A DNA stretch of 64,000 bases, from the NCBI RefSeq assembly GCF_900100265.1, contig NZ_LT629696.1:2356001-2420000 (forward strand), given 5' to 3'. The notes under the pieces are model-generated. The model had not been told where the DNA came from. It worked only from the letters and a program-made list of their open reading frames with translations, and ran no database searches. Position numbers and translations under genes: made by a program. This DNA comes from Leifsonia sp. 466MF (GTDB taxonomy: Bacteria > Actinomycetota > Actinomycetes > Actinomycetales > Microbacteriaceae). This document shows positions 2,021 to 42,875 of the stretch, piece by piece; the stretch's first letter is position 1; each line of letters starts with the position of its first letter.

Positions 2021-2046
2021 CGCTCGGCCAGAAGGATGGGCCGCCG

Positions 2047-2379: not shown

Positions 2380-3590
2380 GCGGACTCCCTCCTGCGCCGC
2401 TCCTTCTTGAGCGGCTTGACCTTGTCGATCTTGACGACCTTGCCGGACGCCGCGACCTCGCTCTTGCCCTGCACGGGCAGCGGCTTGACGGCGTTCTCAC
2501 TGCTGACGCGGTTGCGACGCGCACGCCAGAAGATGTAGACGACGACGGCGGTGCCGACCACGGTGTCGATGACGACGCCGATCGGTCCGAGGTTGGCGAG
2601 CAGGCCGGCGACGGCACCGACGATGGCGGCGGATGGAAGCGTCAGCAGCCAGCCGATGGCGATCCGGCCCGCCGTGCCCCACCGCACGGACGACCCGCGC
2701 CGGCCGAGACCGGAGCCGATCACCGATCCCGAGGCGACCTGCGTGGTCGAGAGGGCGAAGCCGAGGTGGCTGGACGCGAGGATGGTGGCCGCCGTGCTCG
2801 TCTCCGCAGCGAATCCCTGCGCCGGCTTCACCTCGGTGAGGCCGCGGCCGAGGGTGCGGATGATGCGCCAGCCGCCCGAGTACGTGCCGATCGCGATGGC
2901 GAGCGCACACGCGATGACGACCCAGACCTCCGGCCCGGAACCGGCCTCCTGGAAGCCCGCGGAGATGAGCGTCAGGGTGATGACGCCCATGGTCTTCTGG
3001 GCGTCGTTGGTGCCGTGGGACAGCGCGACGAGCGAGGACGAGAAGATCTGCCCGTATCGGAAGCCGCCGCGGCCGTCCGGGCGCCCGTCGTAGCGCCGCG
3101 TGATCCAGTACGCGAGCTTGGTCGCACTCCACGCGACGACACCGGCGGTGAACGGCGCGATGATCGCCGGAAGGATGACCTTGTCCAGCACGACGACGAA
3201 GTCGACCGATTGGAGTCCGGCGCCGACGATCGCGGCCCCGATGAGGCCACCGAACAGCGCATGACTGGACGACGACGGCAGGCCGTACAGCCAGGTGATC
3301 ATGTTCCAGACGATCGCCCCGACGAGTCCGGCGAAGATGAGCACCGGCGTGATCTGCACGCCGCCCTCACCCTCCTTGATGATGCCGCCGGAGATGGTCT
3401 TGGCGACTTCCGTGGAGAGGAACGCTCCGATGAGGTTGAGCACGGCGGCGAGGGCCACGGCGACCTTCGGCCGCATGGCGCCCGTCGCGATGGGGGTCGC
3501 CATCGCGTTGGCCGTGTCGTGGAAGCCGTTCGTGAAGTCGAAGAAGAGCGCCAGCGCGATGACCAGCACGACGATGAGGGTGAGGTCCAC
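2376..3590 (-). CDS. pit: PiT-family inorganic phosphate transporter
   Basis: 404-residue polytopic membrane protein of the PiT family, which imports phosphate (usually as a metal-phosphate complex) with H+ or Na+. The N-terminal PiT signature FDFTNGFHDTANAMATP begins near residue 17. The second, inverted half carries SHGTNDAQKTMGVI. Full length for the family. The start is GTG at 3590, preceded by a purine-rich AGAAAG. A PhoP-box-like direct repeat lies 41-62 bp upstream (3631-3652), suggesting phosphate-responsive control as known for pitH2 in Streptomyces. The last gene of the pair is a small membrane protein. Confidence 0.93.
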   Translation of the reverse strand: MDLTLIVVLVIALALFFDFTNGFHDTANAMATPIATGAMRPKVAVALAAVLNLIGAFLSTEVAKTISGGIIKEGEGGVQITPVLIFAGLVGAIVWNMITWLYGLPSSSSHALFGGLIGAAIVGAGLQSVDFVVVLDKVILPAIIAPFTAGVVAWSATKLAYWITRRYDGRPDGRGGFRYGQIFSSSLVALSHGTNDAQKTMGVITLTLISAGFQEAGSGPEVWVVIACALAIAIGTYSGGWRIIRTLGRGLTEVKPAQGFAAETSTAATILASSHLGFALSTTQVASGSVIGSGLGRRGSSVRWGTAGRIAIGWLLTLPSAAIVGAVAGLLANLGPIGVVIDTVVGTAVVVYIFWRARRNRVSSENAVKPLPVQGKSEVAASGKVVKIDKVKPLKKERRRRESA

Positions 3591-3734
3591 CGTTCTCTTT
3601 CTCGTGTGGGATGCCTCCCCCGACGCAAACGTTCATCGGAGGTTCATGCAAGGGACCTGGCGCGTTACGACACCGTGACGATACTCACACGACGCCTCAG
3701 TCAGGTCAAACCCGCTGCGACCCCGTTCGCGGGG
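3591..3734. promoter_or_regulatory. PiT upstream region with PHO-box-like direct repeat and helicase terminator hairpin
   Basis: Two 11-bp direct repeats with GTTCATCGGAG at 3631-3641 and GTTCATGCAAG at 3642-3652 fit the PhoP-box architecture of actinobacteria. On the minus strand a promoter-like TTGACC-N17-GAGTAT lies further upstream, so the box would fall just after that start site; which promoter is used is unclear. At 3721-3734 CCCCG/CGGGG forms a 5-bp hairpin with a 4-nt loop, immediately after the helicase stop codon; it may be a weak terminator. Confidence 0.45.
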
Positions 3735-6338: not shown

Positions 6339-6370
6339 GATGCCCCCAGCCTCCCACGTCGCGGCGGCCA

Positions 6371-6408
6371 CTCGTGGCGCGCGCTCGACGTGCTCGTGGC
6401 GCGCGCTC
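6371..6408. repeat. 16-bp direct repeat upstream of the molybdoenzyme gene
   Basis: CTCGTGGCGCGCGCTC occurs at 6371-6386 and again at 6393-6408, a 22-bp period (about two helical turns). The second copy covers the -35 area of the promoter at 6421. Confidence 0.5.
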
Positions 6409-6420
6409 AGGCGGTGGTCA

Positions 6421-6426
6421 TAGGTT
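6421..6426 (+). promoter_or_regulatory. -10 hexamer of a leaderless promoter (molybdoenzyme gene)
   Basis: TAGGTT ends 6 nt before the ATG at 6433 and no ribosome-binding site is present, the geometry of a leaderless transcript. Confidence 0.5.
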
Positions 6427-6432
6427 TGCCCC

Positions 6433-7959
6433 ATGTCCGACTTCTGGCGGCCGGCCGGGGCCGGCGTCGCGAGCGTTGTCGCGGGCGTCGGCGTCGCCGA
6501 GCTGGTGAGTGCGTTCGTCGTGCAGAACGGCAGCCCGATCCTCACCGTCGGCGCGCTGCTCATCGACCTCGCGCCGCCGTGGCTGAAGGAGGCCGTCATC
6601 GGCCTGTTCGGCACCGGCGACAAGGCGTTCCTCATCGTGTCACTGGCCGTCGTCGTCGTGGTCGGCGCAGGGATCGCGGGCTGGCTGGAGCGGGTCCGGC
6701 CGCCGCTCGGACGCATCCTCATCGGACTCGGCGGAGCGGTCGGCGTGCTGGCCGCGGTCACCCGCTCGGGGAACAGCATCGTGGACGCGCTGCCGTCGGT
6801 GCTCGCGGCCGGGGTCGCCATCCTGCTTCTCGGCTGGCTCATGCGGATGCTGCGCGACACCGAGCCGACCCGGGTCGCGCCGAGCGGCCGGGTCTCCCGC
6901 CGCCGGTTCGTCGGCTCGACCGCCGCGACCGCAGCCGGAGGGGCGCTCGCCCTGATCGTCGGCCAGGTGGTGGCCGGCGGCTTCCGGGCGGCCTCCGCCA
7001 CCCGCGCGGCGATCCGGCTGCCCAAACCGGCGGAGACGGCCCCGCCCATCCCGGCCGGAGCCTCGTTCGACATCCCGGGGCTGTCGCCGATCGTCACGCC
7101 GAACGCCGACTTCTACCGCATCGACACAGCGCTGCAGATCCCGGGGATCGACCCGAACGACTGGAGACTCCGCATCACCGGCATGGTCGAGAACGAGGTC
7201 GAGCTGACCTTCGCCCAGCTGCTGGCGCTGCCGCTGGAGGAGTCCACCACGACGCTCACCTGCGTCTCCAACGAGGTCGGCGGAGACCTGATCGGCAACG
7301 CGACCTGGCTCGGCTACCCGATCCGTCACCTGCTCGCGCGCGCCAAGCCGTCCGCCGACGCCGACATGGTGCTGTCGACCAGCCAGGACGGGTGGACGGC
7401 GAGCACCCCGATCGAGACGCTGACCGATGAGCGCAACGCCATCCTCGCCGTCGGGATGAACGGCCAGCCGCTGCCGCTCGAGCACGGCTATCCCGTGCGG
7501 ATGGTCGTGCCGGGCCTCTACGGCTACGTGTCGGCCACCAAGTGGGTGGTGTCGATGGAGGTCACGCGCTTCGACCAGCACACCTCGTATTGGACCGACC
7601 GCGGCTGGTCGGAGCGCGGGCCGGTGAAGCTGTCGTCCCGGATCGACGTCCCCGCCGCCGGCCGGCAGGTGAAGGCCGGGACCGTCGCGGTGGCCGGGGT
7701 GGCCTGGTCGCAGCACGTCGGCGTCAGCGCGGTGCAGGTGAAGGTGGATGACGGGCCCTGGCAGCAGGCGACCCTCGCGGACGCCATCTCGGCCGACACC
7801 TGGCGGCAGTGGCGGTTCGCCTGGGAGGCGACGCCGGGCGCCCACACCCTCCGGGTCCGCGCGACGGACGCGAAGGGGAAGGTGCAGACGGCCGCGGTGC
7901 AGGACGTCGTGCCCGACGGCGCGACCGGCCTGCACTCGGTGCGGGTCACGGTGGTGTGA
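6433..7959 (+). CDS. membrane-anchored sulfite-oxidase-family molybdopterin oxidoreductase
   Basis: 508 residues. Residues 1-140 contain about four hydrophobic segments. A twin-arginine-like SRRRFVG (155-161) with a hydrophobic stretch to about 182 follows. The catalytic domain begins near 215 (FYRIDTALQIP). Cys277 in TLTCVSNEVGG is the expected molybdenum ligand of the sulfite oxidase family, and a C-terminal Mo-co dimerisation domain (from about 395) follows. The catalytic part should face outside, bound to the membrane. The substrate cannot be read from sequence; sulfite, a sulfoxide or another oxyanion is possible. It opens the cofactor synthesis operon, directly before the moeB-like gene, so enzyme and cofactor genes are probably co-expressed. 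Confidence 0.88.
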   Translation: MSDFWRPAGAGVASVVAGVGVAELVSAFVVQNGSPILTVGALLIDLAPPWLKEAVIGLFGTGDKAFLIVSLAVVVVVGAGIAGWLERVRPPLGRILIGLGGAVGVLAAVTRSGNSIVDALPSVLAAGVAILLLGWLMRMLRDTEPTRVAPSGRVSRRRFVGSTAATAAGGALALIVGQVVAGGFRAASATRAAIRLPKPAETAPPIPAGASFDIPGLSPIVTPNADFYRIDTALQIPGIDPNDWRLRITGMVENEVELTFAQLLALPLEESTTTLTCVSNEVGGDLIGNATWLGYPIRHLLARAKPSADADMVLSTSQDGWTASTPIETLTDERNAILAVGMNGQPLPLEHGYPVRMVVPGLYGYVSATKWVVSMEVTRFDQHTSYWTDRGWSERGPVKLSSRIDVPAAGRQVKAGTVAVAGVAWSQHVGVSAVQVKVDDGPWQQATLADAISADTWRQWRFAWEATPGAHTLRVRATDAKGKVQTAAVQDVVPDGATGLHSVRVTVV

Positions 7960-7971
7960 TTGGCTGAGCGT

Positions 7972-9102
7972 ATGGCCCTCCCGCCTCTGGTCGAACCCGG
8001 TCCCGAACTGTCCGTCGAGCGGACGGCCCGCTACGCCCGCACCACGCAGCTGCCCGGCTTCGGGCCCGTCTCGCAGCGCCGGCTGCGGGCGGCCCGGGTG
8101 CTCGTCGTCGGGGCCGGCGGCCTCGGCTCGGCGGTGCTCCCGCTGCTCGCGTCGGCCGGGGTCGGAACGATCGGGATCGTCGACGACGACCGGGTGGAGC
8201 CGAGCAACCTGCCGCGGCAGGCCATCCACACGCCCGCCGCTGTCGGGCGTGCCAAAGTGGAGTCCGCCGCGGACGCCGTGCGGGCGCTGGACGACGAGGT
8301 GGAGCTGCGCCTGTACGCCGAGCGGCTGACGTCGCAGAACGCGCCGGGCATCCTCGCCGGATTCGACCTCGTGCTCGACGGCAGCGACAACTTCCCGACC
8401 CGGTATCTGGTGGATGACGCGGCGACGCTCGCGGGCATCCCCGTCGTGTGGGGAGCCGTGCACCAGACGGGCGGCCAGGCGGGGCTCAGCTGGGCCGCGC
8501 ACGGGCCGACCTACCGCGACCTGTTCCCGGTGCCGCCCGCGCCCGGCACAGTGGCGAGCTGCGCCGAGGCGGGCGCGCTGCCGTCGGTGTGCGGCGTGAT
8601 CGGCGGGCTGATGGTCAGCGAGGCGATCAAGCTGGTGGCCGGGACGGGCGATCCGCTGCTCGGCCGGGTCGTCATCCACGACGGCCTGCGCGGGACGTTC
8701 CGCGAGCTGGCCTACGAGCGCGATCCGGAGGCGGCGCCTGTCACGGAGCTGATCGACTACGACCTGTTCTGCGGTGTGACCGACACGATGTCGCCCGCCG
8801 AGCTGCACGCCCGGCTCGTGGCGGGTGAGCCGCACACGCTGCTGGATGTGCGGGAGCCGTGGGAGGCCGACATCGTCGAGCTGCCCGACTCGCTGCTGGT
8901 GCCGCTCGGCGTCGTGGAGCGGGACGCGGCGGGAGTGGCCGAGCGGCTGTCCGACGCGCCGCTCGTGATCGTCTGCCACCACGGCATCCGAGCAGAGACC
9001 GCGCGCCGCTTGCTCGCCGACGCGGGCAGGCCCGGCCTGGTGCTCGCCGGCGGCCTCGACGCCTGGGCCCGAGACATCGACCCCGGAATGCCGCGCTACT
9101 GA
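7972..9102 (+). CDS. moeB: MoeB/ThiF-like adenylyltransferase with C-terminal rhodanese domain
   Basis: 376 residues from the ATG at 7972; a TTG at 7960, immediately after the previous stop, is an alternative. GAGGLGS (47-53) binds ATP, PSNLPRQ holds the conserved Arg, and GSDNFPTRY follows, as in E1-like enzymes that adenylate the C-terminal glycine of MoaD or ThiS. CAEAGALPSVCGVIGG is the crossover/zinc region. The C-terminal rhodanese domain has the active loop CHHGIRA with Cys335, which can pass persulfide sulfur. Activation and sulfuration of the MoaD encoded at 15097 is the likely job. An isolated palindrome separates it from moeA. Confidence 0.9.
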   Translation: MALPPLVEPGPELSVERTARYARTTQLPGFGPVSQRRLRAARVLVVGAGGLGSAVLPLLASAGVGTIGIVDDDRVEPSNLPRQAIHTPAAVGRAKVESAADAVRALDDEVELRLYAERLTSQNAPGILAGFDLVLDGSDNFPTRYLVDDAATLAGIPVVWGAVHQTGGQAGLSWAAHGPTYRDLFPVPPAPGTVASCAEAGALPSVCGVIGGLMVSEAIKLVAGTGDPLLGRVVIHDGLRGTFRELAYERDPEAAPVTELIDYDLFCGVTDTMSPAELHARLVAGEPHTLLDVREPWEADIVELPDSLLVPLGVVERDAAGVAERLSDAPLVIVCHHGIRAETARRLLADAGRPGLVLAGGLDAWARDIDPGMPRY

Positions 9103-11880: not shown

Positions 11881-12285
11881 ATGCCGCAGATTCGGATCAA
11901 GGACGCCGCCCTCTACCTCGGTGTGAGCGACGACACCGTGCGCCGCTGGATCGACGGCGGTGTGCTCGGGAGCGCTCGCGACGAGGCCGGCCGCACCGTC
12001 GTCGACGGACTGGAGCTCGCTCAGCTGGCCAAGCAGAACGCGGTGCTGCCCGGCGACCCGTCCGGCGTCGCGGGCTCGGCGCGCAACCGATTCGTCGGGC
12101 TCGTGACCGACATCGTCATGGATCGGGTGATGGCCCAGGTCGAACTGCAGTGCGGCCCGCATCGCGTGGTGTCGCTCATCAGCAGCGAGGCCGTGCGCGA
12201 GCTCGGCCTCGAACTCGGATCGGTCGCGGTCGCCGTCATCAAGGCGACCAACGTCATCGTCGAGGCTCCGGCGGTGGCCCGATGA
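11881..12285 (+). CDS. Mop-domain molybdate-binding protein with MerR/excisionase-type helix-turn-helix
   Basis: 134 residues. Residues 1-55 form a helix-turn-helix (IKDAALYLGVSDDTVRRWIDGG), and residues about 65-130 a Mop/TOBE domain (ARNRFVGLVTDIVMDRVMAQVEL then SSEAVRELGLELGSVAVAVIKATNVIV) that binds molybdate oxyanion. It overlaps modA by ATGA. Known actinobacterial relatives pair a short DNA-binding head with one Mop unit, so this is probably the molybdate sensor that adjusts modABC expression. That regulatory role is inferred from domain and position. Confidence 0.85.
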   Translation: MPQIRIKDAALYLGVSDDTVRRWIDGGVLGSARDEAGRTVVDGLELAQLAKQNAVLPGDPSGVAGSARNRFVGLVTDIVMDRVMAQVELQCGPHRVVSLISSEAVRELGLELGSVAVAVIKATNVIVEAPAVAR

Positions 12286-13094
12286 AGGCGCGCCCTCGTC
12301 GGTTCGCCCGGCTGGCGAGCGCAGGCGTCTCAGCCATCGCAGTCGTCGCTCTGGCTCTGTCCGGATGCAGCAGCCCGGCCGCATCCACGCCGTCGGCTCC
12401 GCGCTCCTCGGACGGCGTGACCGGCACGATCACGGTGTTCGCCGCTGCGTCGCTCACGAAGACGTTCACCGAGCTCGGCACGCGGTTCGAAGCCGCGCAC
12501 CCCGGCGCGAAGGTCACGTTCTCGTTCGCCGGCTCCTCCGATCTGGTCTTGCAGCTGACCGCCGGCGCCCCGGCGGACGTGTTCGCGTCGGCCGATGAGG
12601 CGAACATGACGAAGGCGGTGGATGCGAAGGTCACCAGCGGCTCGCCCGTGGACTTCGCGACGAACGTGCTCGCCATCGCGGTGCCGCCCGGCAACCCGGC
12701 GCACGTGACGGGCTTCGCCGACCTGGCCTCCCCCTCCGTCAAGACGGTCGTGTGTGCGCCGCAGGTGCCGTGCGGTGCCGCCACCGCGAAAGTGGAGAAG
12801 TCGGCCGGCGTCACCCTGACGCCGGTGAGCCAGGAGTCGTCGGTGACCGACGTCCTCGGCAAAGTGACGTCTGGCGAGGCGGACGCGGGGATCGTCTACG
12901 CCACCGACGTGAAGGGTGCCGGCTCGGCGGTCGAATCCGTTCCGTTCCCGGAGGCGGCGAAGACCGTCAACGTCTACCCGATCTCCGTCGTGGCCCAGGC
13001 GCCGAACGCCGCGGGCGCGAGGGCGTTCGTCGCGTACGTGACCGGGGCCGCGGGGCGCGCTGTGCTCGCCGCCGCCGGGTTCGGGGCACCGTGA
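12282..13094 (+). CDS. modA: molybdate ABC transporter substrate-binding lipoprotein ModA
   Basis: 270 residues starting at the ATG that overlaps the previous stop. A lipoprotein signal ends in LALSGC with Cys29 as the lipidated residue. The mature part has [30 protein letters not shown] and [11 protein letters not shown], the oxyanion-binding pattern of ModA, and [10 protein letters not shown] near the end. It captures molybdate outside the cell and hands it to ModB. First gene of modABC. Confidence 0.95.
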
Positions 13095-14981: not shown

Positions 14982-15051
14982 CACCGTCGAGTCCGCAAAC
15001 TTTGCACGCTGAGAGGGCGGATTCTGTGCAGAGTTTGCGGACTCGACGGTG
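14982..15051. repeat. intergenic palindrome, family A copy 1
   Basis: Inverted arms of 26 bp at 14982-15007 and 15026-15051, 25 of 26 positions complementary, with an 18-nt spacer; total 70 bp. The arm core is GAGTCCGCAAACTTTGCAC. It lies between convergent modC and moaD, so it could act as a two-way terminator. Confidence 0.9.
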
Positions 15052-32876: not shown

Positions 32877-33413
32877 ATGAGTGACCGCGAAGAGCTCATC
32901 CACATCGTCCGCGGCGACATCACCGACGAGACCGTCGATGCGATCGTCAACGCCGCCAACAGCTCGCTCCTCGGCGGCGGAGGGGTCGACGGCGCCATCC
33001 ACCGCCGCGGCGGGCCCACGATCCTGGAGGCCACGCGCGAGCTCCGCGCGACGACCCTCCCGGACGGCCTGCCCACCGGCCAGGCCGTCGCGACGACCGC
33101 GGGCGACCTCGCGGCGAAATGGGTCATCCACGCGGTCGGGCCGGTCTGGTCGAGCAGCGAGGACCGCACCCCTCTCTTGCAGAACGCCTACCGCTCGTCC
33201 CTCCGCGTCGCCCGCGAGCTCGGTGCCCGCACCGTCGCCTTCCCCGCGATCTCGGCCGGCGTCTACGGCTGGCCGATGGATGACGCTGCGCGCATCGCCA
33301 TCAGTACCGTCCGCGCCGTGCTGTCCTCCGGCGTCGGCTCGGTCGAGCACGTGCGCTTCGTCCTGTTCTCCGACGAGGCGTTCGACGCGTTCCGGGAAGC
33401 GGCCGGCGAGTGA
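32877..33413 (+). CDS. macrodomain O-acetyl-ADP-ribose deacetylase-like protein
   Basis: 178 residues. VRGDITDETVDAIVNAANSSLLGGGGVDGAIHRRGG is the MacroD/YmdB active-site region with the catalytic Asp and Asn, and FPAISAGVYGWP closes the ADP-ribose pocket. The family removes acetyl from O-acetyl-ADP-ribose or ADP-ribose from proteins. It starts 9 bp after the metal sensor gene and overlaps the next gene by GTGA, so these are probably one transcript. Confidence 0.93.
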   Translation: MSDREELIHIVRGDITDETVDAIVNAANSSLLGGGGVDGAIHRRGGPTILEATRELRATTLPDGLPTGQAVATTAGDLAAKWVIHAVGPVWSSSEDRTPLLQNAYRSSLRVARELGARTVAFPAISAGVYGWPMDDAARIAISTVRAVLSSGVGSVEHVRFVLFSDEAFDAFREAAGE

Positions 33414-34735
33414 CGGCGGAGGCGCTCGACCGCTTCCGGGCTCTGCTGCGCATCCCCACCATGTCCCGCAACGCCGTCGAGGAGACCGACTGGGCGGTGT
33501 TCGACGAGTTCGTCGCCACGCTGCCACAGCTCTACCCGGCCATGCACAGCGCCCTGGAGCAGGAGCGGCATGGACACTCGCTGCTCTACCGCTGGCGCGG
33601 CCGGAGCGACGAGGCGCCCACCGTCCTGATGGCGCACTACGACGTGGTTCCCGCGACCGCGGAGGGCTGGACGCATCCGCCCTTCGCCGCCGAACTGACC
33701 GGCTCGGGCGAGCAGCAGGTGCTGTGGGGGCGCGGGGCGATCGACGACAAGGGGGCGCTCGTCGCGATCCTGGAGGCGGTGGAGGCGCTCGTGCAGGACG
33801 GCTTCCAGCCGGCCAACGACGTATACCTGAGCTTCGGACACGACGAGGAGACGGTCGGCTCGGGAGCGCGGGCGATCGTCTCGGTGCTCGCCGGGCGCGG
33901 CATCCGCCCGGCACTCGTCCTCGACGAGGGCGGCGCCGTCGTCGAACGCATCTTCCCGGGCGTGAGCAAGCCCATCGCGGTGATCGGCGTGAGCGAGAAG
34001 GGCATCACCAGCGTGCGGCTCACCGTCGAGCAGAACGGCGGTCACGCGTCCACTCCCCCGAAGACGACCGCGACGGTCCGGCTCGCCCGCGCCATCACCC
34101 GCCTCAACGACCGGCCGTTCCCCGCCCGGCTGACCGAGACGAACCTGCGGATGGTGGAGACGCTGGGCGCGCACGCGACCGGACCCCTGCGCGCCGTCTT
34201 CACGCGTGCCCGCCGGCTGCAGCCCGCGCTGCGCGTCGTATTCGGCCGGCTCAGCGACGAGACGCGCGCGATCGTGCGGACCACCACGGCCGTGACGCAG
34301 CTGCGCGGGAGCCTCGCCGCGAACGCACTGCCGGAGACGGCGGAGGCCGTGGTCAACACCCGGATCGCGGTCGGGTCGTCGGTCGCCGAGACGCTCGATC
34401 ACATCCGCCGGGCGATCCGCGACGACGCCGTCCGCGTGGAGGCGGTCGACGCGAGCGAGCCGTCCCCGGTCTCCCCCGCCGACGGTCCCGAGTGGGACCG
34501 CCTCGCGACCGCGATCGGAGCCGTGCACCCGCACGCCGTGGTGACGCCGTACATCATGCTCGGCGCGAGCGACAGCCGGCACTTCACCGGCATCTGCGAC
34601 GCGGTCTACCGGTTCACCCCGTTCGAGCTGAGCGCCGAGGAGCGGGGCGCGCTGCACGCGCGCGACGAGCGCATCCATGTCGCCACCTGGCGCCGCGGCA
34701 TCGCCGTCTACGCCCACCTCCTCCGCGCCTCCTGA
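33410..34735 (+). CDS. M20-family metallopeptidase/hydrolase
   Basis: 441 residues from a GTG overlapping the previous stop. Metal ligands are visible in MAHYDVVPATAEGWTHPPF (His, and catalytic Asp two residues on), WGRGAIDDKG (bridging Asp) and FGHDEETVGSGA (catalytic Glu and ligand Glu); a lid domain (about 205-330) holds VEQNGGHASTPP. It resembles carboxypeptidase S-like or dipeptidase members with two zinc ions in the cytosol. The substrate is unknown. Confidence 0.9.
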   Translation: MTAEALDRFRALLRIPTMSRNAVEETDWAVFDEFVATLPQLYPAMHSALEQERHGHSLLYRWRGRSDEAPTVLMAHYDVVPATAEGWTHPPFAAELTGSGEQQVLWGRGAIDDKGALVAILEAVEALVQDGFQPANDVYLSFGHDEETVGSGARAIVSVLAGRGIRPALVLDEGGAVVERIFPGVSKPIAVIGVSEKGITSVRLTVEQNGGHASTPPKTTATVRLARAITRLNDRPFPARLTETNLRMVETLGAHATGPLRAVFTRARRLQPALRVVFGRLSDETRAIVRTTTAVTQLRGSLAANALPETAEAVVNTRIAVGSSVAETLDHIRRAIRDDAVRVEAVDASEPSPVSPADGPEWDRLATAIGAVHPHAVVTPYIMLGASDSRHFTGICDAVYRFTPFELSAEERGALHARDERIHVATWRRGIAVYAHLLRAS

Positions 34736-34782: not shown

Positions 34783-34852
34783 CTCCGTCGAGTCCGCAAA
34801 TTTTGTACGCCGCGACGGCGCGGCGCGTGCAAAGTTTGCGGACTCGACGGCT
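34783..34852. repeat. intergenic palindrome, family A copy 2
   Basis: Inner arms at 34785-34808 and 34827-34850 (24 bp, 22 complementary) with an 18-nt spacer; equivalent total length 70 bp as in the other A copies. It lies 47 bp after the M20 gene and upstream of the permease promoter. Confidence 0.88.
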
Positions 34853-34884
34853 GGGGCGGAGCGGCGGGAGAGATGAGCCGGAGT

Positions 34885-34928
34885 GTGCGAAGTGCACAGG
34901 GCGGGGGCGAAGTCGTGCGGGGTGCACA
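34885..34928. promoter_or_regulatory. tandem 14-bp sites upstream of the permease-hydantoinase operon
   Basis: GTGCGAAGTGCACA (34885-34898) and GTGCGGGGTGCACA (34915-34928) match at 12 of 14 bases and are exactly 30 bp apart, about three helical turns. Each holds a palindromic GTGCAC. They lie just upstream of a TACGGT -10 box (34953-34958) and are candidate binding sites for the PucR regulator encoded at the end of the operon. Confidence 0.5.
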
Positions 34929-34999: not shown

Positions 35000-36385
35000 A
35001 TGGCACGCACAGCTCATGCCGACGACTTCGCCCTCTCCCGTGTGACCCCCGACGCGCGCAAGCCGTGGTTCGGGATCGCGGTGCAGCGCTTCGGTCAGGT
35101 CTCGGCTCTCTCGCAGTTCCTGCTCGGGGCGACCCTGGGCTACAGCATGACCTTCGGCGAGGCGGCGCTCGCGCTGCTCCTCGGCTCGATCATCCTCGAG
35201 GTGATCATGTGCATCGTCGGCATCATCGGGCAGAAGGAGGGGCTGAACACAGCCCTCCTGGCCCGCTGGACCGGCTTCGGCGAGATCGGCGCCTCCCTCG
35301 TCGGCCTCGCGATCGGCATCAGCCTCATCGGCTGGTTCGGCATCCAGTCCGCCATCTCCGCCCAGTCCCTGAACGTGCTCATGCCCGGCGTTATGCCGGT
35401 GTGGGTGTGGAGCCTGCTGTTCGGCCTGGCCGTCACCGCCATCGTCGCGTACGGCTTCGTCGGGATGCAGTGGCTGGCGAACATCACCGTCCCGCTGTTC
35501 CTCATCCTCGTCGGCTGGTCTATCATCAGCGAGCTCAGCAAGCACTCGCTCGGCGAGCTGATGACGTCGCCCGCGCCCGGTCCGACGATGTCGGTCTGGC
35601 AGGGCACCGGGATCGTCGCGGGCGGCCTCATCGTCGGCGCGATCATCACCGCCGACATGACGCGGTTCAACCGCAGCCGGGCCGACGTCGTCAAGCAGAC
35701 CGTTCTCGGCGTGACCCTGGGCGAGTTCGTCATCGGCCTCGCCGGCGTGCTGCTCGCCCACGCGGCGGCCAGCGGCGACATCGTCGCGATCGTGACCTCG
35801 TCGATCGGCTTCGTCGGCCTGATCATCGTCATCACCGGAACGCTGAAGATCAACGACTGGAACCTGTACTCGTCCACGCTCGGACTGGTCAACTTCATCT
35901 CCACCGCGTTCTCGAAGAACCTGCACCGCGTCACCACGACGATCGTGCTCGGCATCGTCGGCTCGGTGCTCGCCGCCGCGGGCATCCTCGCCCAGTTCAC
36001 CGGCTTCCTCACGATCCTCGGCGTCGCATTCCCGCCGATCGCCGGCATCATGGTCGCCGAGTACTTCTTCGTCCGCCGCTGGCGCGGCGACCTCGACGCC
36101 ACCCGGGCCTCCGGCCGCCTCCCGGAGCACGCCCCGCGGATCGTCCCCGTCACCCTCCTCGTGTGGCTGGTCTCCTCGCTGGTCGGCTACTTCGTGACCT
36201 GGGGCATCCCCGCCATCTGGTCGCTGCTGCTCTCGATCGTGCTCTACACGGTCGCCGGCAAGCTCGGCTGGGTCCGCGGCGTCGGCCGTGCCACCACCAT
36301 CCAGGCTCCGGCCGGTGTGGACGGCGCAACGACGGCACCCGCGGCGGACGCCCCCTCCGGCCCCGAGGCCGTCGCCTCCAACTGA
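35000..36385 (+). CDS. NCS1-family nucleobase/hydantoin-type permease
   Basis: 461 residues, about twelve transmembrane helices. TPDARKPWFGIAVQRFGQVSALSQFLLGATLGY resembles the first helix of CodB-type transporters; IITADMTRFNRSRADVV and LKINDWNLYSSTLGLVNF are core features. NCS1 carriers import cytosine, uracil, allantoin or hydantoins with H+ or Na+; Mhp1, a hydantoin carrier of Microbacterium, is a member. Next to hydantoinase-type genes, a hydantoin-like substrate is likely. First gene of a six-gene operon; AAGGA precedes the ATG. Confidence 0.9.
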   Translation: MARTAHADDFALSRVTPDARKPWFGIAVQRFGQVSALSQFLLGATLGYSMTFGEAALALLLGSIILEVIMCIVGIIGQKEGLNTALLARWTGFGEIGASLVGLAIGISLIGWFGIQSAISAQSLNVLMPGVMPVWVWSLLFGLAVTAIVAYGFVGMQWLANITVPLFLILVGWSIISELSKHSLGELMTSPAPGPTMSVWQGTGIVAGGLIVGAIITADMTRFNRSRADVVKQTVLGVTLGEFVIGLAGVLLAHAAASGDIVAIVTSSIGFVGLIIVITGTLKINDWNLYSSTLGLVNFISTAFSKNLHRVTTTIVLGIVGSVLAAAGILAQFTGFLTILGVAFPPIAGIMVAEYFFVRRWRGDLDATRASGRLPEHAPRIVPVTLLVWLVSSLVGYFVTWGIPAIWSLLLSIVLYTVAGKLGWVRGVGRATTIQAPAGVDGATTAPAADAPSGPEAVASN

Positions 36386-36429
36386 GCCCTGCTCCCGAAC
36401 CGCCCCATCACCACAGAAAGCGACACAAC

Positions 36430-37983
36430 ATGCATATCGGCATCGACGTCGGCGGCACCAACACCGACGCAGTGCTCATGGACGGCCGGACCACCCTGGC
36501 CGGCGTCAAGAACTCGACGAGCCCGGATGTCACCAGCGGCATCGTGAGCGCGATCGAAGCGCTGCGGGCGGCGCGGGACTTCCGGGGCGACGACATCCAG
36601 GCGGTGATGATCGGCACCACGCACTTCATCAACGCGCTCGTCGAGGCGAAGCGGCTCGCGCCCACCGCGGCCCTCCGCCTCGGCCTGCCCGCCACCCGGG
36701 CCCTTCCTCCGCTGGTGGACTGGCCGGAGCCGCTCATCGCCGCGATCGGCGGCCGGAGCTATCTGGCGCACGGCGGCTACGAGTTCGACGGTCGTCCCAT
36801 CTCGCCGATCGACGTCGCCGAGCTCAAGGGCATCGCGGCCGACATGGCGGCCAACGGCGTGCGGTCGGTGGCCATCTCATCCGTCTTCTCGCCCGTGAAC
36901 CACGATGTCGAGACGCAGGCGGCGGCCATCCTCGCGGACGAGCTGGGCGATGGCGTCGCCATCTCGCTGTCGCACGAGATCGGGCGCATCGGGCTGCTCG
37001 AGCGCGAGAACGCCACGATCATCAACGCGGCGCTGCGCGAGCTCGCCTCCGAGATCGTCGACGGCCTCACGTCGGCGGTGCGCGCCCAGGGCATCGACGC
37101 GCCGATCTTCCTGAGCCAGAACGACGGGACGCTGATGGATGAGGACTACGTGCGCCTCTACCCGGTGGCGACCTTCGCCTCCGGTCCGACCAACTCCATG
37201 CGCGGCGCCGCCCTCACCAGCGGCCTCGAGACCTGCGCGGTGGTCGACATCGGCGGAACGACGGCCGACATCGGCCTGCTCGTCAACGGCTTCCCGCGCG
37301 AGACCGCCAACGAGGTCAAGGTGGCCGGCGTCCGCACCAACTTCCGGATGCCGGACGTGCTGTCGATCGGCATCGGCGGCGGGTCCATCGTCGACACCGA
37401 GACGGCGGAGGTCGGGCCCGAGTCGGTCGGCTACCGGCTGACCTCCGAGGCCCTCGTCTTCGGCGGTTCGACCCTGACCGCGACGGACATCGCCGTCGCG
37501 GCCGGCCGCGCCGACATCGGCGACCCCGCGAAGGTCGCCCACCTCGACCCCGCCTTCGTGCAGCGGGTGCTCGACCGCATCGCCGAACGCGTCGCGGAGG
37601 CCGTCGACCGGATGCGCACCTCCCCCGACCCCATCCCCGTCGTCGCGGTGGGCGGCGGCTCGATCCTGCTGCCGGACGAGCTGCCGATCTTCGGAGCCGT
37701 GCATCGCCCCGACAACTACGCCGTCGCCAACGCGATCGGCGCATCCATCGCACAGGTCGGGGGCGAGATCGACAAGGTGTACGCCGTCGAGCCCGGCCGC
37801 CGCGAGGAGGCCATCGCCGCCGTTCGGGCGGAGGCGGTGGACAAGGCGATCGCGGCCGGCGCTTCCCCCACGTCGGTCGCGATCGTCGACTTCGACGAGG
37901 TGCCCATCCCGTACCTGCCCGGCAACGCGACCCGGATCCGGGTCAAGGCCGTCGGCGACCTGGCGATGGAGGTGCGCGTATGA
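36430..37983 (+). CDS. hydantoinase/oxoprolinase-type ATPase (HyuA-like, short form)
   Basis: 517 residues. The N-terminal actin-like domain starts MHIGIDVGGTNTDAVLMDG, and the second domain has ATFASGPTNSMRGAAL, VVDIGGTTADIGLLVNG and SIGIGGGSIVD. These bind ATP in 5-oxoprolinase, acetone carboxylase and N-methylhydantoinase. The protein lacks the C-terminal part of about 170 residues present in full HyuA, and no HyuB gene is present. It overlaps the first DUF917 gene (ATGA), so the two likely act together. The ATP-driven opening of a five-membered ring is inferred. Confidence 0.88.
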   Translation: MHIGIDVGGTNTDAVLMDGRTTLAGVKNSTSPDVTSGIVSAIEALRAARDFRGDDIQAVMIGTTHFINALVEAKRLAPTAALRLGLPATRALPPLVDWPEPLIAAIGGRSYLAHGGYEFDGRPISPIDVAELKGIAADMAANGVRSVAISSVFSPVNHDVETQAAAILADELGDGVAISLSHEIGRIGLLERENATIINAALRELASEIVDGLTSAVRAQGIDAPIFLSQNDGTLMDEDYVRLYPVATFASGPTNSMRGAALTSGLETCAVVDIGGTTADIGLLVNGFPRETANEVKVAGVRTNFRMPDVLSIGIGGGSIVDTETAEVGPESVGYRLTSEALVFGGSTLTATDIAVAAGRADIGDPAKVAHLDPAFVQRVLDRIAERVAEAVDRMRTSPDPIPVVAVGGGSILLPDELPIFGAVHRPDNYAVANAIGASIAQVGGEIDKVYAVEPGRREEAIAAVRAEAVDKAIAAGASPTSVAIVDFDEVPIPYLPGNATRIRVKAVGDLAMEVRV

Positions 37984-39074
37984 GCTGGACGCTGACCGCC
38001 GACCGCATCGCCGAGCTCGCGCGCGGCGCCGCCGTGCTCGGTACGGGAGGAGGCGGAGACCCGTACATCGGGTCGCTGCTGGCCGCGCAGGCGCTCGCCG
38101 AGCACGGACCGGTGACCGTCGTCTCCCTCGATGAGGTGCCCGACGACGCCCTGGTGCTCACCGTCGCGATGATGGGCGCCCCGACCGTCATGGTCGAGAA
38201 GCTGCCCAGCCTCGAGGAGGTGATCGCGCCCGTCCACGCCCTCGGCACCTACCTCGGCCGGCCGGTCACCCACGTGGCGTGCGCCGAGATCGGCGGGGTC
38301 AACTCCACGATCCCGGTGGCCGCGGCCGCTGCGCTCGGGCTGCCGCTGGTGGATGCCGACGGCATGGGCCGCGCGTTCCCCGAACTGCAGATGGTGCTGC
38401 CGACGCTGTACGGCGTCACGGCGTCCCCGCTCGCCTTCGGCGACGAGAAGGGCAACGTCGGCGTGCTGAACACCGCCGACAACCACTGGACCGAGCGGAT
38501 CGCCCGCGTCGCATGCGTCGAGATGGGCTGTTCGATCATGATCTCCGGCTTCCCGATGAGCGGCGCCGTCGCGCGGGAGGCGCTCGTCCCGGGTTCGTTG
38601 ACGCACTGCCTCGCCATCGGCTCCGGGATCACCGCGGCCCGCGCGGCGAAGACCGACGCGGTCGCGGCGACCGTCGAGCTGCTCGGCGGCCGCGAGTTCT
38701 TCTCCGGCAAGGTGGTGGATGTGGAACGCGGCACCACCGCCGGGTTCGCCCGCGGGCGCGCCCGCATCGAGGGCGCGGAGTCGTCGCTCGACCTCGCCTT
38801 CCAGAACGAGCATCTGATCGCGCGGTCCGGCGACGAGGTCTTCGTGACCACTCCCGACCTGACCATCGTGCTCGACGCCGAGAGCGGGGAGCCGATCACC
38901 ACCGAGGGCCTGCGGTACGGCCAGCGGGTGCGGGTGATCGCCGCACCCAGCGACCCGCGCTGGCACAGCGCCGAGGCGCTCGCCATGGTCGGCCCCGGAT
39001 ACTTCGGCTACGACCTGCCGTCGCACCGCTTCGACGGAACCGTCGAGCGCGCCCTCGAGGGGGTGACCGCGTGA
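37980..39074 (+). CDS. DUF917 protein, copy 1
   Basis: 364 residues. GTGGGGDPYIGSLLA near residue 21, EIGGVNSTIPV near 103, VDADGMGRAFPELQM near 122 and SGEPITTEGLRYGQRVRV near 300 define the family. As I recall, Pfam now describes this family as S-methyl-thiohydantoin desulfurase, after one characterised member. It overlaps the HyuA-like gene before it and the second copy after it. It is the shorter of the two closely related copies and probably acts on the same ring or a product of it. Confidence 0.88.
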   Translation: MSWTLTADRIAELARGAAVLGTGGGGDPYIGSLLAAQALAEHGPVTVVSLDEVPDDALVLTVAMMGAPTVMVEKLPSLEEVIAPVHALGTYLGRPVTHVACAEIGGVNSTIPVAAAAALGLPLVDADGMGRAFPELQMVLPTLYGVTASPLAFGDEKGNVGVLNTADNHWTERIARVACVEMGCSIMISGFPMSGAVAREALVPGSLTHCLAIGSGITAARAAKTDAVAATVELLGGREFFSGKVVDVERGTTAGFARGRARIEGAESSLDLAFQNEHLIARSGDEVFVTTPDLTIVLDAESGEPITTEGLRYGQRVRVIAAPSDPRWHSAEALAMVGPGYFGYDLPSHRFDGTVERALEGVTA

Positions 39075-40216
39075 GCTGGACGCTGACGGCGGCCGACCTC
39101 CCGGACCTCGCCCGCGGCGCGACGCTGCTCGGAACGGGCGGCGGCGGCGATCCCTACATCGGTCAGATGCTCGTCGCCCGCGTGCTGAGCGAGAGCGGCC
39201 TCGGCGAGCGCGGCATCACCATCCTCGACCCGGACGACCTCGCGGACGACACGTTCGTCATCCCGACGGCGCAGATGGGCGCTCCGACCGTGATGATCGA
39301 GAAGATCCCGGCGGGTACGGAGCCGACCCTCGCGCTGCGGACGCTGGAGGCGCACCTCGGCCGGTCGGCCGACGCCACCATGCCGATCGAGTGTGGTGGC
39401 ATCAACTCGATGATCCCGCTGATCGTCGCCGCCGAGACCGGACTGCCGGTCGTGGATGCGGACGGCATGGGCCGCGCGTTCCCCGAGCTGTCGATGGAGA
39501 CGTTCGCCGTGTACGGCGTGCACGGGTCTCCTCTGGCGCTCGCCGGAGAGCGGGGCGAGACCGTCATCATCGACACCGGCGACGACGACCGGCAGATGGA
39601 GTGGCTGGCGCGCGGCATCACCATCCGGCTGGGCGGAGTCGGGCACATCGCCGAGTACGCGATGAGCGGCGCCGACGTGAAGCGCACCGCCGTCCCGCGC
39701 ACGCTCTCGATGGCGCTCGCCCTCGGCCGGGCGATCCGGGAGGCACGGGAGCAGCACCGCTCGCCCTTCGAGGCGATCGCGCAGACCCTGTCCACCACGC
39801 TGTACTCGGAGGTGCGGGAGCTGTTCGCCGGCAAGGTGGCGGACGTGGAGCGCCGCACCACAGAGGGCTTCGCCAAGGGCCGGGCCACGATCTCGTCGCT
39901 CGACGGGACGAGCGGCCCGGGCGGTCCCGGTGGTTCCGGCAGCACGCTCGAGATCCGCTTCCAGAACGAGAACCTCACGGCGCACCGCGACGGCGAGCTG
40001 GTCGCGATCGTGCCCGACCTGATCTGCGTCACCGACATCGAGTCGGGAGAGCCGATCACCACCGAGGGTCTGCGCTACGGACAGCGCGTGCGCGTGCTCG
40101 GCATCTCCACCCCGGAGATGATGCGGACTCCCGCGGCGCTCGCCGCCTTCGGCCCGCGCGCGTTCGGGCTGACCGAGGAGTTCATCCCCGTCGAGACGGC
40201 GCAGGCGCTGGTCTGA
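39071..40216 (+). CDS. DUF917 protein, copy 2
   Basis: 381 residues from a GTG overlapping copy 1. It keeps GTGGGGDPYIGQMLV, ECGGINSMIPLIV, VDADGMGRAFPEL and SGEPITTEGLRYGQRVRV, so it should be as active as copy 1. A Gly/Ser/Pro insertion (TSGPGGPGGSGST) lies near residue 280. Two adjacent full copies suggest a hetero-oligomer or two successive reactions. Followed by a 38-bp gap and the third copy. Confidence 0.88.
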   Translation: MSWTLTAADLPDLARGATLLGTGGGGDPYIGQMLVARVLSESGLGERGITILDPDDLADDTFVIPTAQMGAPTVMIEKIPAGTEPTLALRTLEAHLGRSADATMPIECGGINSMIPLIVAAETGLPVVDADGMGRAFPELSMETFAVYGVHGSPLALAGERGETVIIDTGDDDRQMEWLARGITIRLGGVGHIAEYAMSGADVKRTAVPRTLSMALALGRAIREAREQHRSPFEAIAQTLSTTLYSEVRELFAGKVADVERRTTEGFAKGRATISSLDGTSGPGGPGGSGSTLEIRFQNENLTAHRDGELVAIVPDLICVTDIESGEPITTEGLRYGQRVRVLGISTPEMMRTPAALAAFGPRAFGLTEEFIPVETAQALV

Positions 40217-40254
40217 CGCCGTCGCCGCGGCGGTCTCCGCCTACTCTGGAGGGC

Positions 40255-41283
40255 ATGAGAACTCTCGGACAGGAGAGCCTGCCTGCTCTCGCCCGAGGAT
40301 TCTCCCTGCTCGGCTCCGGAGGCGGCGGGGCCACCACGATGCTGGAGCTCATGGTGCAGGACGCCCCGATCTGGCCGATCGCCCTGCGGGGGCCGGAGGA
40401 GTTCGACCCGTCCACCCCGTGCGTCGCGGTGGCGTTCGCCGGGTCGACCTACCTGCTGACCGAGCGCCTCCCCGCCGCAGACGCGTTCGGGCCGCTTCTG
40501 GCCGCCGCCGAGCGCTGGACGGGCGTGCGCGCCCGGGCCGTGTGCGGGCTGGAAGGAGCCGGGATGAACGGGCTCAGCCCGCTCCTCCTGGCCGACCGCC
40601 TGGACCTCGTCGACGCCGACCTGATGGGACGCGCGCTCCCCCGGCTCGATCAGATCTCGCTGCTGGTGGACGCCGTCCCCGGCGTGGTGGCGGTCTGCGA
40701 CACGGGCGGTGGCGTCGTCGTGATCGACACCGCCCGCCCGGCCGACGTCGAGAGCCAGGTGCGCGCCGCCATCGTGCAGGCCGGGGGCGCCGGAGCGGTG
40801 CTGATCGCCGGGTTCACCGTGGACGACCTCACCGAGCACGGCGTGCTCGGCACCCCGACGCGGGCCCTCCGTCTCGGCCGGGGCGGCGCCGACCGGAGCC
40901 TGGCACCGGCCGCACTCGCGGAAGCGCTCGGCGCCCGGCTCCTCGGCACGGGCCGTGTGGCCGGAGTCGAGGCCTCGATCGACGACCCGTACGTGAGCGC
41001 CATCCAGCTCGACGACGACGGCGGCGCGCTCCTTCGGCTGGTGGCGCGGTCGGAGCTGCTGGCCGTCGTGCGCGACGGCGTGACCACCGCCGCGAGCCCC
41101 GAGATCATCGTGGCGCTCGACTCGGTCTCGGGCGACGTCCTCCAGGTCGACGAGATCACCCTCGCCCGCAACGTGATCGTGCTGGCGCTGGAGGCCCCGG
41201 CGTGGTGGACGTCCTCCCCCGACCGCGAACGGCACATCACCCCCGCCGGGTTCGGGCTGCGTGGGCTGGAGGTGCCCGCGTGA
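40255..41283 (+). CDS. DUF917 protein, copy 3 (divergent)
   Basis: 342 residues with GGAGGG before the ATG; a TACTCT hexamer 7 nt upstream may allow its own transcription. The glycine loop is changed to GSGGGGATTML, the central motif to VDADLMGRALPRL, and the SGEPITTEGLRYG segment is replaced by SGDVLQVDEITLARN. It may bind another ligand or act as a non-catalytic partner. It overlaps the PucR gene (GTGA). Confidence 0.82.
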   Translation: MRTLGQESLPALARGFSLLGSGGGGATTMLELMVQDAPIWPIALRGPEEFDPSTPCVAVAFAGSTYLLTERLPAADAFGPLLAAAERWTGVRARAVCGLEGAGMNGLSPLLLADRLDLVDADLMGRALPRLDQISLLVDAVPGVVAVCDTGGGVVVIDTARPADVESQVRAAIVQAGGAGAVLIAGFTVDDLTEHGVLGTPTRALRLGRGGADRSLAPAALAEALGARLLGTGRVAGVEASIDDPYVSAIQLDDDGGALLRLVARSELLAVVRDGVTTAASPEIIVALDSVSGDVLQVDEITLARNVIVLALEAPAWWTSSPDRERHITPAGFGLRGLEVPA

Positions 41284-42794
41284 GCGACGGACTCGACCTC
41301 GCCGCGCTGTTCGCGCATCCCGCGAACGGCGGGCTGCGCGGGATCGCCGGAGCGCATCCCTCGGTCGTCTGGCGGGAGCTCGTCGTCGCGGCCGACGAAT
41401 CGGGGCTGCCGGCCGACGGCGACGGACGGCTCGCGGTGCTCACGGTCGCGCCACCGGCGACGCCCTGGCAGCAGGATGCGCTGGTGCGCCGCGTCCGCGA
41501 CCGCGGCTACCGGGGGCTGGTGCTCCCGGAGGCGGACGGATTCGGCGCCGGCACCCGCTCGCTCGCGGAGCGTCTCGGTCTCGCGCTCCTCGGCGCGACC
41601 GACCCGATGGCGCTCGCGCGTGCGGGGTGGGAGCTCCGCGAGGGCCGGGATGCGCTGACCCTCGGGTACGTGCGCCGCGTCGCGCAGTCGATCGAGTACC
41701 ACGCCGACAACCTCGCGGACCTGCTGCGACACCTCTCCGCCAGCGTCGGCCACGGCGTCGCGCTGATCGACAGCGAAGGCGTGCTGCTGGAGGCCGGGCA
41801 ATCGCTTCCGGCGGTCGTGCACGCCGCGATCGACTTCGGCCCCTGGATCAGCACGGTCGAGCTGCCGGAGGGGTCCGCGGCCTCGGTGCGGGTCGACAGC
41901 CCCAGCCGGGCGGGCCTGCGGCTGGCCGTCTTCGGGCAGGGGCTCGGGGCCGTCCAGCTGAGCGCCCTTGCGGTCGCGGCGGAGGTCGCCATGCCGGCGG
42001 TGGCCGCGCGCATCCTCATCGACGAAGTGGCCGACGTGAACGATGCCGCCGTCGCCTCCGGACTGCTCCGCGACTTCCTCGAGCTGCGCGACAGCCGTGA
42101 CTCCGATCTGGAGCAGCGGATGCTGGAGCGCGGCTGGCGCACGACCGGATACCACCTGGGGTTCCGGCTCGCCGGGCGGTCCCGCGTCGACACACTCCAG
42201 CTGCTGCGGCTGGTGGCGCGGGAGCTGACGGCACTTCCCGTCGACTCGCATGCCGCCACCAGCGGCCGAGGGGTGACGGGCTGGCTCAGCTTCGCCACGC
42301 CTCCCCCGCCGAGCCGCGTCGAGGAGAGCGTGCGGGCGCTGCTGGCGGTGCACACCGCCGCCCGCCGCGTGTTCAACGTCGCGACCGGTGTCGGGACACT
42401 CGAGAGCGGCGCGACCGGCCTCGTCGCGACCATCGACGGAGCGTCGGACGCCGCCCGCATCGCAGCGGGCCGCTCGGCGACCGGCTATTTCGTGCGGATC
42501 GACGCGCTCGGACTGGAGCAGCTGCTGCTGTCGTGGACCGAGAGCGACACGTTCGTGCCGGCCGCCGAATCCCTGCTGGCGCCGCTGATCGCGCGCGGGC
42601 CGGAGCTCGTCGAGACGCTCGCCGCGTATCTGGATCACGAATCGGGCATCGCGGCGACCGCCGAAGCCCTGGGCCTCCACCGCAACACGGTCTCCACCCG
42701 CGTGGCCCGGGCCCAGGAGCTGCTCGGTCTCGACCTGGCCGACCCCGAGACCCGCCTCGCCGTGCACCTCGCGTGCCGTGCGCTGCGCCGCTGA
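41280..42794 (+). CDS. PucR-family transcriptional regulator
   Basis: 504 residues. The C-terminal HTH_30 domain reads YLDHESGIAATAEALGLHRNTVSTRVARAQELLGLDL. The N-terminal 120 residues are the PucR leader (LRGIAGAHPSVVWRELVVAADE, RGYRGLVLPEADGFGAGT), and a GGDEF-like CdaR middle part follows. PucR proteins activate purine, allantoin or related ring catabolism in response to the substrate. Its position as the last, translationally coupled gene makes it the likely local regulator; the tandem 14-bp sites at 34885 are candidate targets. Confidence 0.9.
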   Translation: MSDGLDLAALFAHPANGGLRGIAGAHPSVVWRELVVAADESGLPADGDGRLAVLTVAPPATPWQQDALVRRVRDRGYRGLVLPEADGFGAGTRSLAERLGLALLGATDPMALARAGWELREGRDALTLGYVRRVAQSIEYHADNLADLLRHLSASVGHGVALIDSEGVLLEAGQSLPAVVHAAIDFGPWISTVELPEGSAASVRVDSPSRAGLRLAVFGQGLGAVQLSALAVAAEVAMPAVAARILIDEVADVNDAAVASGLLRDFLELRDSRDSDLEQRMLERGWRTTGYHLGFRLAGRSRVDTLQLLRLVARELTALPVDSHAATSGRGVTGWLSFATPPPPSRVEESVRALLAVHTAARRVFNVATGVGTLESGATGLVATIDGASDAARIAAGRSATGYFVRIDALGLEQLLLSWTESDTFVPAAESLLAPLIARGPELVETLAAYLDHESGIAATAEALGLHRNTVSTRVARAQELLGLDLADPETRLAVHLACRALRR

Positions 42795-42795
42795 T

Positions 42796-42875
42796 CCGCC
42801 CACCGTCGAGTCCGCAAACTTTGCACGCTCACGCGCCGCATCGTGTGCAAAGTTTGCGGACTCGACGGTGGGCGG
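42796..42875. repeat. intergenic palindrome, family A copy 3
   Basis: Perfect inverted arms of 31 bp at 42796-42826 and 42845-42875, with an 18-nt spacer. The core CACCGTCGAGTCCGCAAAC is shared with copies 1 and 2. It begins 2 bp after the PucR stop, between convergent genes. Confidence 0.92.

Follow-up and report, generated by a model that had tools for sequence, protein, structure and literature searches.

A Leifsonia operon pairs a short HyuA-type ATPase with DUF917 proteins and may open a hydantoin-like ring without HyuB

Described relatives and layout of the operon

The operon analyzed here lies at positions 35000 to 42794 of a 64,000-nucleotide stretch (the window) of the genome of Leifsonia sp. 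466MF, a single contig of 4.14 Mb, and tightly groups the genes for an NCS1 permease, a short HyuA-type ATPase, three DUF917 proteins (D1 to D3), and a PucR regulator. The closest described enzymes are N-methylhydantoinase, 5-oxoprolinase, and caprolactamase (HyuA-HyuB, CapAB). Like these, the window ATPase has both the N-terminal and the central domain of the ATPase and keeps the two phosphate motifs, and ATP-dependent opening of a cyclic amide would be expected of it by analogy. Unlike these, it has 517 residues instead of approximately 690, lacks the GxxPGP motif, and is accompanied by DUF917 proteins instead of HyuB. The names hydantoinase and oxoprolinase are routinely given to HyuA-type proteins.

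D1 to D3 belong to the same two-domain DUF917 family as the desulfurases modeled by NF058532 and NF058529, but they score 28 to 127 bits against cut-offs of 440 to 450, are tied to an ATPase, and have no urocanase or lyase in their operon. A DUF917 structure, CV_3147 (2o3i), is listed as a hypothetical protein with no assigned function and has 27% identity over the aligned residues. The permease belongs to the NCS1 family, like CodB (cytosine) and Mhp1 (hydantoin). According to the accessible text of one study, DUF917 was experimentally uncharacterized in 2024 and occurs near cyclodipeptide-oxidase-like, i.e., ring-modifying, genes (PMC11055893); unlike that case, no oxidase was found here, and the HyuA-DUF917 pairing is not described in that text. 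In the accessible parts of two other papers, a permease, a DUF917 protein, a hydantoinase-family protein, and a short-chain dehydrogenase (SDR) appear together in a gene list of L. rhamnosus (PMC7513527), and consecutively tagged genes for permease, DUF917, and hydantoinase proteins show a joint rise in a C. difficile regulator mutant (PMC12915319); these lists place the parts together but assign no unit or function. No description of the HyuA-DUF917 pairing as a system was found in the accessible portions of the open-licence literature.

The six genes are given below with their positions in the window and their Pfam matches.

35000..36385, forward strand: NCS1-family permease, 461 aa (PF02133, 68.7 bits)
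36430..37983, forward strand: short HyuA-type (ASKHA) ATPase, 517 aa (PF05378, and PF01968 positions 1-210 of 291)
37980..39074, forward strand: DUF917 protein D1, 364 aa (PF06032 and PF20906)
39071..40216, forward strand: DUF917 protein D2, 381 aa (PF06032 and PF20906), 46% identical to D1, in a clade of its own
40255..41283, forward strand: DUF917 protein D3, 342 aa (PF06032 and PF20906, weaker at 97 and 90 bits)
41280..42794, forward strand: PucR-family regulator, 504 aa (PF13556, 77.4 bits, and PF17853)

Both domain matches were above the gathering cut-off in all three DUF917 proteins, and the PF02133 match of the permease and the PF05378 and PF01968 matches of HyuA also exceeded their cut-offs. 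A 44-bp gap separates the NCS1 and HyuA genes and a 38-bp gap separates D2 and D3, while the HyuA-D1 junction is an ATGA overlap and the D1-D2 and D3-PucR junctions are GTGA overlaps. These coordinates and profiles confirmed the gene set, order, and tight junctions described in a first-pass annotation of the same DNA. Its remark that three DUF917 proteins but no HyuB are encoded proved to hold for the whole 4.14-Mb genome, which has three PF06032 matches and one PF01968 match, all within the operon, and no match to HyuB (PF02538).

Pairing of short HyuA with DUF917 across genomes

HyuA proteins of 100 Microbacteriaceae genomes were classified as long if they reached the end of PF01968 (n = 27) and as short if they stopped at or before position 211 (n = 15). 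All 15 short HyuA had a DUF917 gene on the same strand within 1.22 kb. Among the long HyuA, 26 of 27 had HyuB inside 3 kb, the remaining one having it 3.3 kb off, and none had DUF917 inside 3 kb. A second sample covered 149 genomes of the phylum, including that of the window, with pairings read by eye and weaker matches unlisted. Leaving aside the window's own genome, all 12 short HyuA in this sample (profile end 170 to 213) had DUF917 within 1.31 kb, and 16/16 DUF917 had a short HyuA no more than 2.4 kb away. A HyuB gene near the same ATPase in relatives had been named beforehand as evidence against a replacement; inside 3 kb it was found beside 0/15 short HyuA of the family sample, with one lying 4.5 kb away in G003 and one 8.4 kb away in G059, and, by eye, beside 0/12 of the phylum sample. 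Five of the nine phylum-sample genomes with a short HyuA-DUF917 pair had no HyuB match, and in G106, G194, and G205 a long HyuA-HyuB pair occupied the same neighborhood, placing HyuB 3.5 to 3.7 kb from the short HyuA. Unlike the ATPase, the permease was not constant: when stretches of a few kilobases were inspected, an NCS1 match adjoined 8 of the 15 short HyuA in the family sample.

The phosphate motifs P1 (DxGGTxTD) and P2 (DxGGT) were kept in 81/81 sequences of the window HyuA and its relatives. The window protein has 517 residues versus 692 to 699 in long controls, and no HyuA C-terminal domain (PF19278) was detected in it at E values up to 5, a weak test in that one of the two long controls also gave none.

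We used the concatenated window proteins as a query for fusions and obtained 998 matches. Among the best 120 of these, 114 carried HyuA and DUF917 domains in a single chain, and none carried PF02538. The fusion hosts among these best 120 were animals, fungi, algae, and amoebae, in addition to metagenome proteins, of which P0121 and P0129 are probably bacterial. Two further proteins of the same set, P0132 (checked) and P0134, have an NCS1 permease joined to HyuA. In a tree of 70 DUF917 sequences, the fused domains fell in at least two separate places. That the window and its relatives encode HyuA and DUF917 separately would suit an alternative in which they are successive separate enzymes, a kinase and then a hydrolase, that form no single complex, but the fusions in at least two groups, the one-to-one genomic partition, and the confident HyuA-DUF917 packing predicted in a model of a fusion make this unlikely. 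The genome-wide absence of HyuB, the partition of pairings, and the fusions strongly support the proposal, already made in the first-pass annotation, that DUF917 substitutes for HyuB beside a short HyuA.

The HyuA half was also matched by the carboxylase subunits 5svb, 5m45, and 5l9w, as would be expected if the module were a carboxylase or ligase like the acetone and acetophenone carboxylases rather than a ring hydrolase. However, the HyuB-type metal-site subunits of those enzymes, as given in the accessible part of PMC8453981, are absent here, and the named DUF917 relatives are desulfurases, so that we regard a carboxylase as very unlikely.

The operon as a whole was also conserved. Species genomes yielded 541 relatives of D1, and the best 80 loci were kept for counts. 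The NCS1-HyuA-D1-D2-D3-PucR order, whose conservation the first-pass annotation had singled out for checking, was intact in 76/80 of them; the remaining four, L027, L029, L066, and L073, run into a contig end there. The closest named loci are those of Leifsonia, and the hosts span from Leifsonia and Microbacterium through Amycolatopsis and Saccharopolyspora. With start codons picked by script at the related loci, D1 and D2 overlapped in 80/80 and D3 and PucR overlapped or abutted in 72/77. D2 and D3 were separated by an insert of 1.1 to 2.4 kb in L079, L081, L082 (Amycolatopsis), and L080, and by one of 0.7 kb in L084. The third DUF917 of L081 to L083 was retrieved with the D2 query (33 to 34% identity) and scored as D3; that of L083, the sole one of the three placed in the tree, fell within the D3 clade. 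The distribution was patchy, with any DUF917 in 18 of the 100 sampled Microbacteriaceae genomes and none in the only other genome of the genus in that sample.

D1, D2, and D3 are three old paralogues, each a well-supported clade extending from Amycolatopsis to the window and including the corresponding copies from L085 and L086. D3 has kept the acidic residues of the N-domain, has lost the TTEGLRYGQR motif of D1 and D2 from its C-domain, and evolves fast (median distance ratio to HyuA, 4.05). The covariation of D3 with PucR was not discriminating (partial correlation, 0.31).

Substrate clues and upstream palindromes

The equivalog models for the named DUF917 enzymes are NF058532 (S-methyl-thiohydantoin desulfurase, cut-off 450) and NF058529 (thiohydantoin desulfurase, cut-off 440), on which D1 scored 127 and 88 bits, D2 87 and 58 bits, and D3 39 and 28 bits, respectively. 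None of the 30 DUF917 of the family sample reached the cut-offs. The 27 ATPase-linked ones scored 36.5 to 130.7 bits on NF058532, and the three ATPase-free ones scored 238 to 258 bits on the S-methyl-thiohydantoin model and 255 to 344 bits on the thiohydantoin model; all 20 DUF917 matches of the phylum sample had desulfurase scores of 127 bits or less. The DUF917 of G012 and G078 were lone in the PF01968 search yet adjoin a divergent HyuA-like frame, 27 to 28% identical to the window HyuA, and were counted as ATPase-linked; one of these frames passes PF05378, and the other has no Pfam match. DUF917 copies without the ATPase, which had been expected to speak against the pairing, do therefore occur in relatives (3/30), but only as the other, desulfurase-like subclass.

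Two of these three ATPase-free genes lie beside an oligopeptide transporter. The third (L106, positions 1627 to 8951, from genome G067) is beside a urocanase and an M20 peptidase, with an IclR regulator and then an amidohydrolase. The urocanase scored best as thiourocanate hydratase (696 bits; cut-off, 930), and the amidohydrolase scored best as hydantoin-5-propionate amidohydrolase (408; cut-off, 600). Ergothioneine breakdown is a five-step pathway, and this locus is a candidate cluster for it. From these scores and neighbors, the tie to ergothioneine-type breakdown belongs to the ATPase-free subclass. A desulfurase route for the window operon would have D1 to D3 free sulfide or methanethiol from an ergothioneine-derived thiohydantoin and HyuA open the resulting hydantoin. 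D1 does match NF058532 at an E value of 7.7e-37, and the NCS1 permease does have Mhp1-like residues, but the scores are far below the cut-off and below those of the ATPase-free desulfurase-like genes, and neither the thiourocanate-hydratase-like nor the hydantoin-5-propionate-amidohydrolase-like gene found beside the G067 DUF917 is in the window operon, which leaves this route highly improbable. The sulfur release from a thiohydantoin suggested in the first-pass annotation was thus not borne out, and we rejected a thiohydantoin as the substrate because D1 to D3 and the ATPase-linked DUF917 lack desulfurase-level scores.

The permease matched the structures of CodB (7qoa, E = 1e-23) and Mhp1 (2jln, E = 4e-8). 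Positions were matched by hand on the alignment, with conservation counted over the 79 rows having a residue. The substrate tryptophan (W117 in Mhp1 and W108 in CodB) corresponds to W112, present in 79/79, and both hydrogen-bonding residues of Mhp1, Gln121 and Asn318, are kept as Q116 (78/79) and N285 (79/79). An invariant L109 stands in place of CodB Q105. The kept Mhp1 residues suggest that the permease substrate may be hydantoin-like.

Another clue came from the neighborhood of the operon, where no gene family outside the six exceeded 18/80 loci (by a crude open reading frame caller based on third-codon-position GC content, with many loci cut). A urocanase gene was found 1.6 to 2.0 kb upstream of NCS1 on the opposite strand in 9/80 loci (L044, L050, L053, L055, L056, L060, L061, L062, and L078, at approximately 2000 to 7000), accompanied by lyase family members in seven of the nine and by an amidohydrolase in eight. 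One representative of each scored above the cut-off as hutH, hutU, and hutI, which indicates ordinary histidine-utilization genes. Such divergent hut genes, together with the hydantoin-like reading of the permease, would fit a route in which HyuA-DUF917 opens a side product of histidine breakdown, e.g., imidazolonepropionate or hydantoin-5-propionate. However, all nine loci are from Microbacterium and may represent one inherited neighborhood, the remaining 71 loci showed no hut genes next to the operon at the sensitivity used, and the urocanase of the window genome is approximately 2 Mb away from the operon. We therefore consider the histidine route improbable.

PucR has its C-terminal helix-turn-helix domain (PF13556), and two palindromes precede the NCS1 gene.

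34884..34898, no strand: palindrome TGTGC-N5-GCACA, candidate PucR operator 1, upstream of NCS1
34914..34928, no strand: second copy with 1 mismatch, 30 bp after the first

The palindrome, with at most one mismatch, was present in the 300 bp preceding NCS1 in 65/78 sequences including the window, although this count is no independent test because the motif was chosen from the same sequences and many of them are close relatives; in 200 mononucleotide shuffles of the upstream stretches, a mean of 0.75 and a maximum of 6 sequences had a site. Better evidence comes from the spacing and from the rarity of the motif in the remainder of these loci. Exact palindromes numbered 31 in 23.4 kb of upstream sequence, versus 1 in the other 1,543 kb of these sequences. 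Paired sites, each with at most two mismatches, occurred in 51/78, spaced by 30 bp in 44, 31 bp in 5, and other distances in 2, and none was found at three offsets within the operon that served as controls. The paired palindromes are likely to be the PucR operator.

Proposed mechanism and accompanying observations

Given that HyuA and DUF917 paired exclusively in the sampled genomes, together with the lack of HyuB, the fusions, the conserved gene order, and the conserved paired sites, all seen by comparison, we propose that the operon probably encodes the uptake and the HyuB-free, ATP-dependent hydrolysis of an imported hydantoin-like ring, i.e., a small cyclic amide or ureide. The NCS1 permease would import the ring, and the short HyuA would phosphorylate a ring carbonyl with ATP, an action proposed for HyuA-type subunits and suggested here by its kept phosphate motifs and the case of caprolactamase. 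DUF917, with D1 and D2 as the main catalytic pair, would then direct the attack of water on the activated carbon of the C-O-phosphate so that the ring opens. This is the step of HyuB in the known enzymes, here putatively carried out by an apparently unrelated fold with a conserved acidic rather than a histidine-containing cluster (E103, N108, D125, D127, R131, E172, and E277 in D1). D3 may be an extra subunit or a sensor, and PucR would turn the operon on via the paired upstream palindromes. The ATP-free DUF917 desulfurases may act by a comparable reaction, their substrates being already equipped with sulfur as the leaving group; this would account for the lack of an ATPase in their case alone. 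From the overall picture drawn in the first-pass annotation, the replacement of HyuB thus carries over and the role of the permease does so in part, but the release of sulfur from a thiohydantoin does not.

Several observations weigh against this proposal. The adenosine motif GxxPGP (tested as S[AV]GxxPGP) was found in 0/81 short HyuA sequences and was seen by eye in both long controls; the short HyuA must therefore bind ATP in another way, or could bind it weakly. DUF917 and HyuB gave an hhalign probability of 0.6%, with only two sequences on the HyuB side; the sole weak match was a glycine-rich stretch, and DUF917 as a distant HyuB is unsupported. A fold comparison of DUF917 had no HyuB among the matches listed, an absence that is no disproof, and a few DUF917 residues overlaying the HyuB half of 9h03 were set aside and not used as evidence. 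Without such homology, an unrelated protein would have taken the place of HyuB. In G194 and G205, the long HyuA has a DUF917 approximately 1.3 kb away; both long HyuA come with a HyuB of their own, and the DUF917 is nearer a short HyuA. Short HyuA matches also occur in the DUF917-free genomes G157, G187, and G217 (profile end 145 to 147) and G155 (102), and odd partial matches occur in G141 and G177, likewise without DUF917. Nor is a set of three DUF917 always required, L119 having one beside HyuA and L114 and L120 having two, so that the roles given to D1 to D3 are tentative. No upstream site was found in 13/78 sequences. In the permease, unlike in CodB, the stacking aromatic of TM6 (F204) is replaced by L210 in 69/79, and K283 and I284, invariant in the 79 rows, stand for T278 and T279 of the sodium site, so that coupling may be sodium-independent. 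The hydantoin import predicted at first is hence backed by the two kept Mhp1 residues but not by these other family features, which are lost.

A broader reading is possible, although we hold it only tentatively. DUF917-HyuA might represent another architecture of ATP-dependent cyclic amide hydrolases, the second to have arisen independently, and be found in prokaryotes, fungi, algae, and animals, with one family-wide DUF917 chemistry, namely, hydrolysis at a ring carbon bearing a good leaving group, either sulfur (without ATP) or a phosphate added by HyuA; D3 might then be a repurposed copy that senses the activated substrate for PucR. If the main proposal is right, the simple rule that short HyuA goes with DUF917 and long HyuA with HyuB would assign partners to many genes, including the fungal and animal fusions, whose function would become directly testable, and it would set the ATPase-linked DUF917 apart from the true desulfurases that share their family name.

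Some relatives carry additional genes. The insert of L079 starts with a short-chain dehydrogenase gene (12150 to 12857, confirmed by Pfam), that of L084 starts with a similar frame (12141 to 12866, judged by eye), and another such gene is in or beside the operon of L033 (6135 to 6932, confirmed by Pfam); a possible role is an accessory redox step. At locus L109 (5403 to 10923), the short HyuA and its DUF917 have a full oligopeptide ABC transporter as their neighbor, and long HyuA and HyuB genes follow as a distinct pair at a greater distance. This arrangement hints that the variant in L109 may act on cyclic substrates resembling peptides. A different ABC system is near the short HyuA-DUF917 set of L110.

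An M20-family peptidase gene (33410 to 34735 in the window) lies just upstream of the operon on the same strand. It was rejected as an operon member, as no match was found beside the closest loci, L005 to L010; a match (43 to 51%) was found downstream in 15/80 loci, nearly all from Microbacterium. Finally, a palindrome of 62 bp, in which constant arms, GTCGAGTCCGCAAA ... TTTGCGGACTCGAC, enclose a variable center, is present at 14986 to 15047, 34787 to 34848, and 42805 to 42866, the latter two copies flanking the operon. With at most two substitutions per arm it was found in none of the 80 related loci. Across the genome, the exact arms occur in 13 copies, of which 12 have a length of exactly 62 bp, and the palindrome is possibly a REP-like or terminator element.

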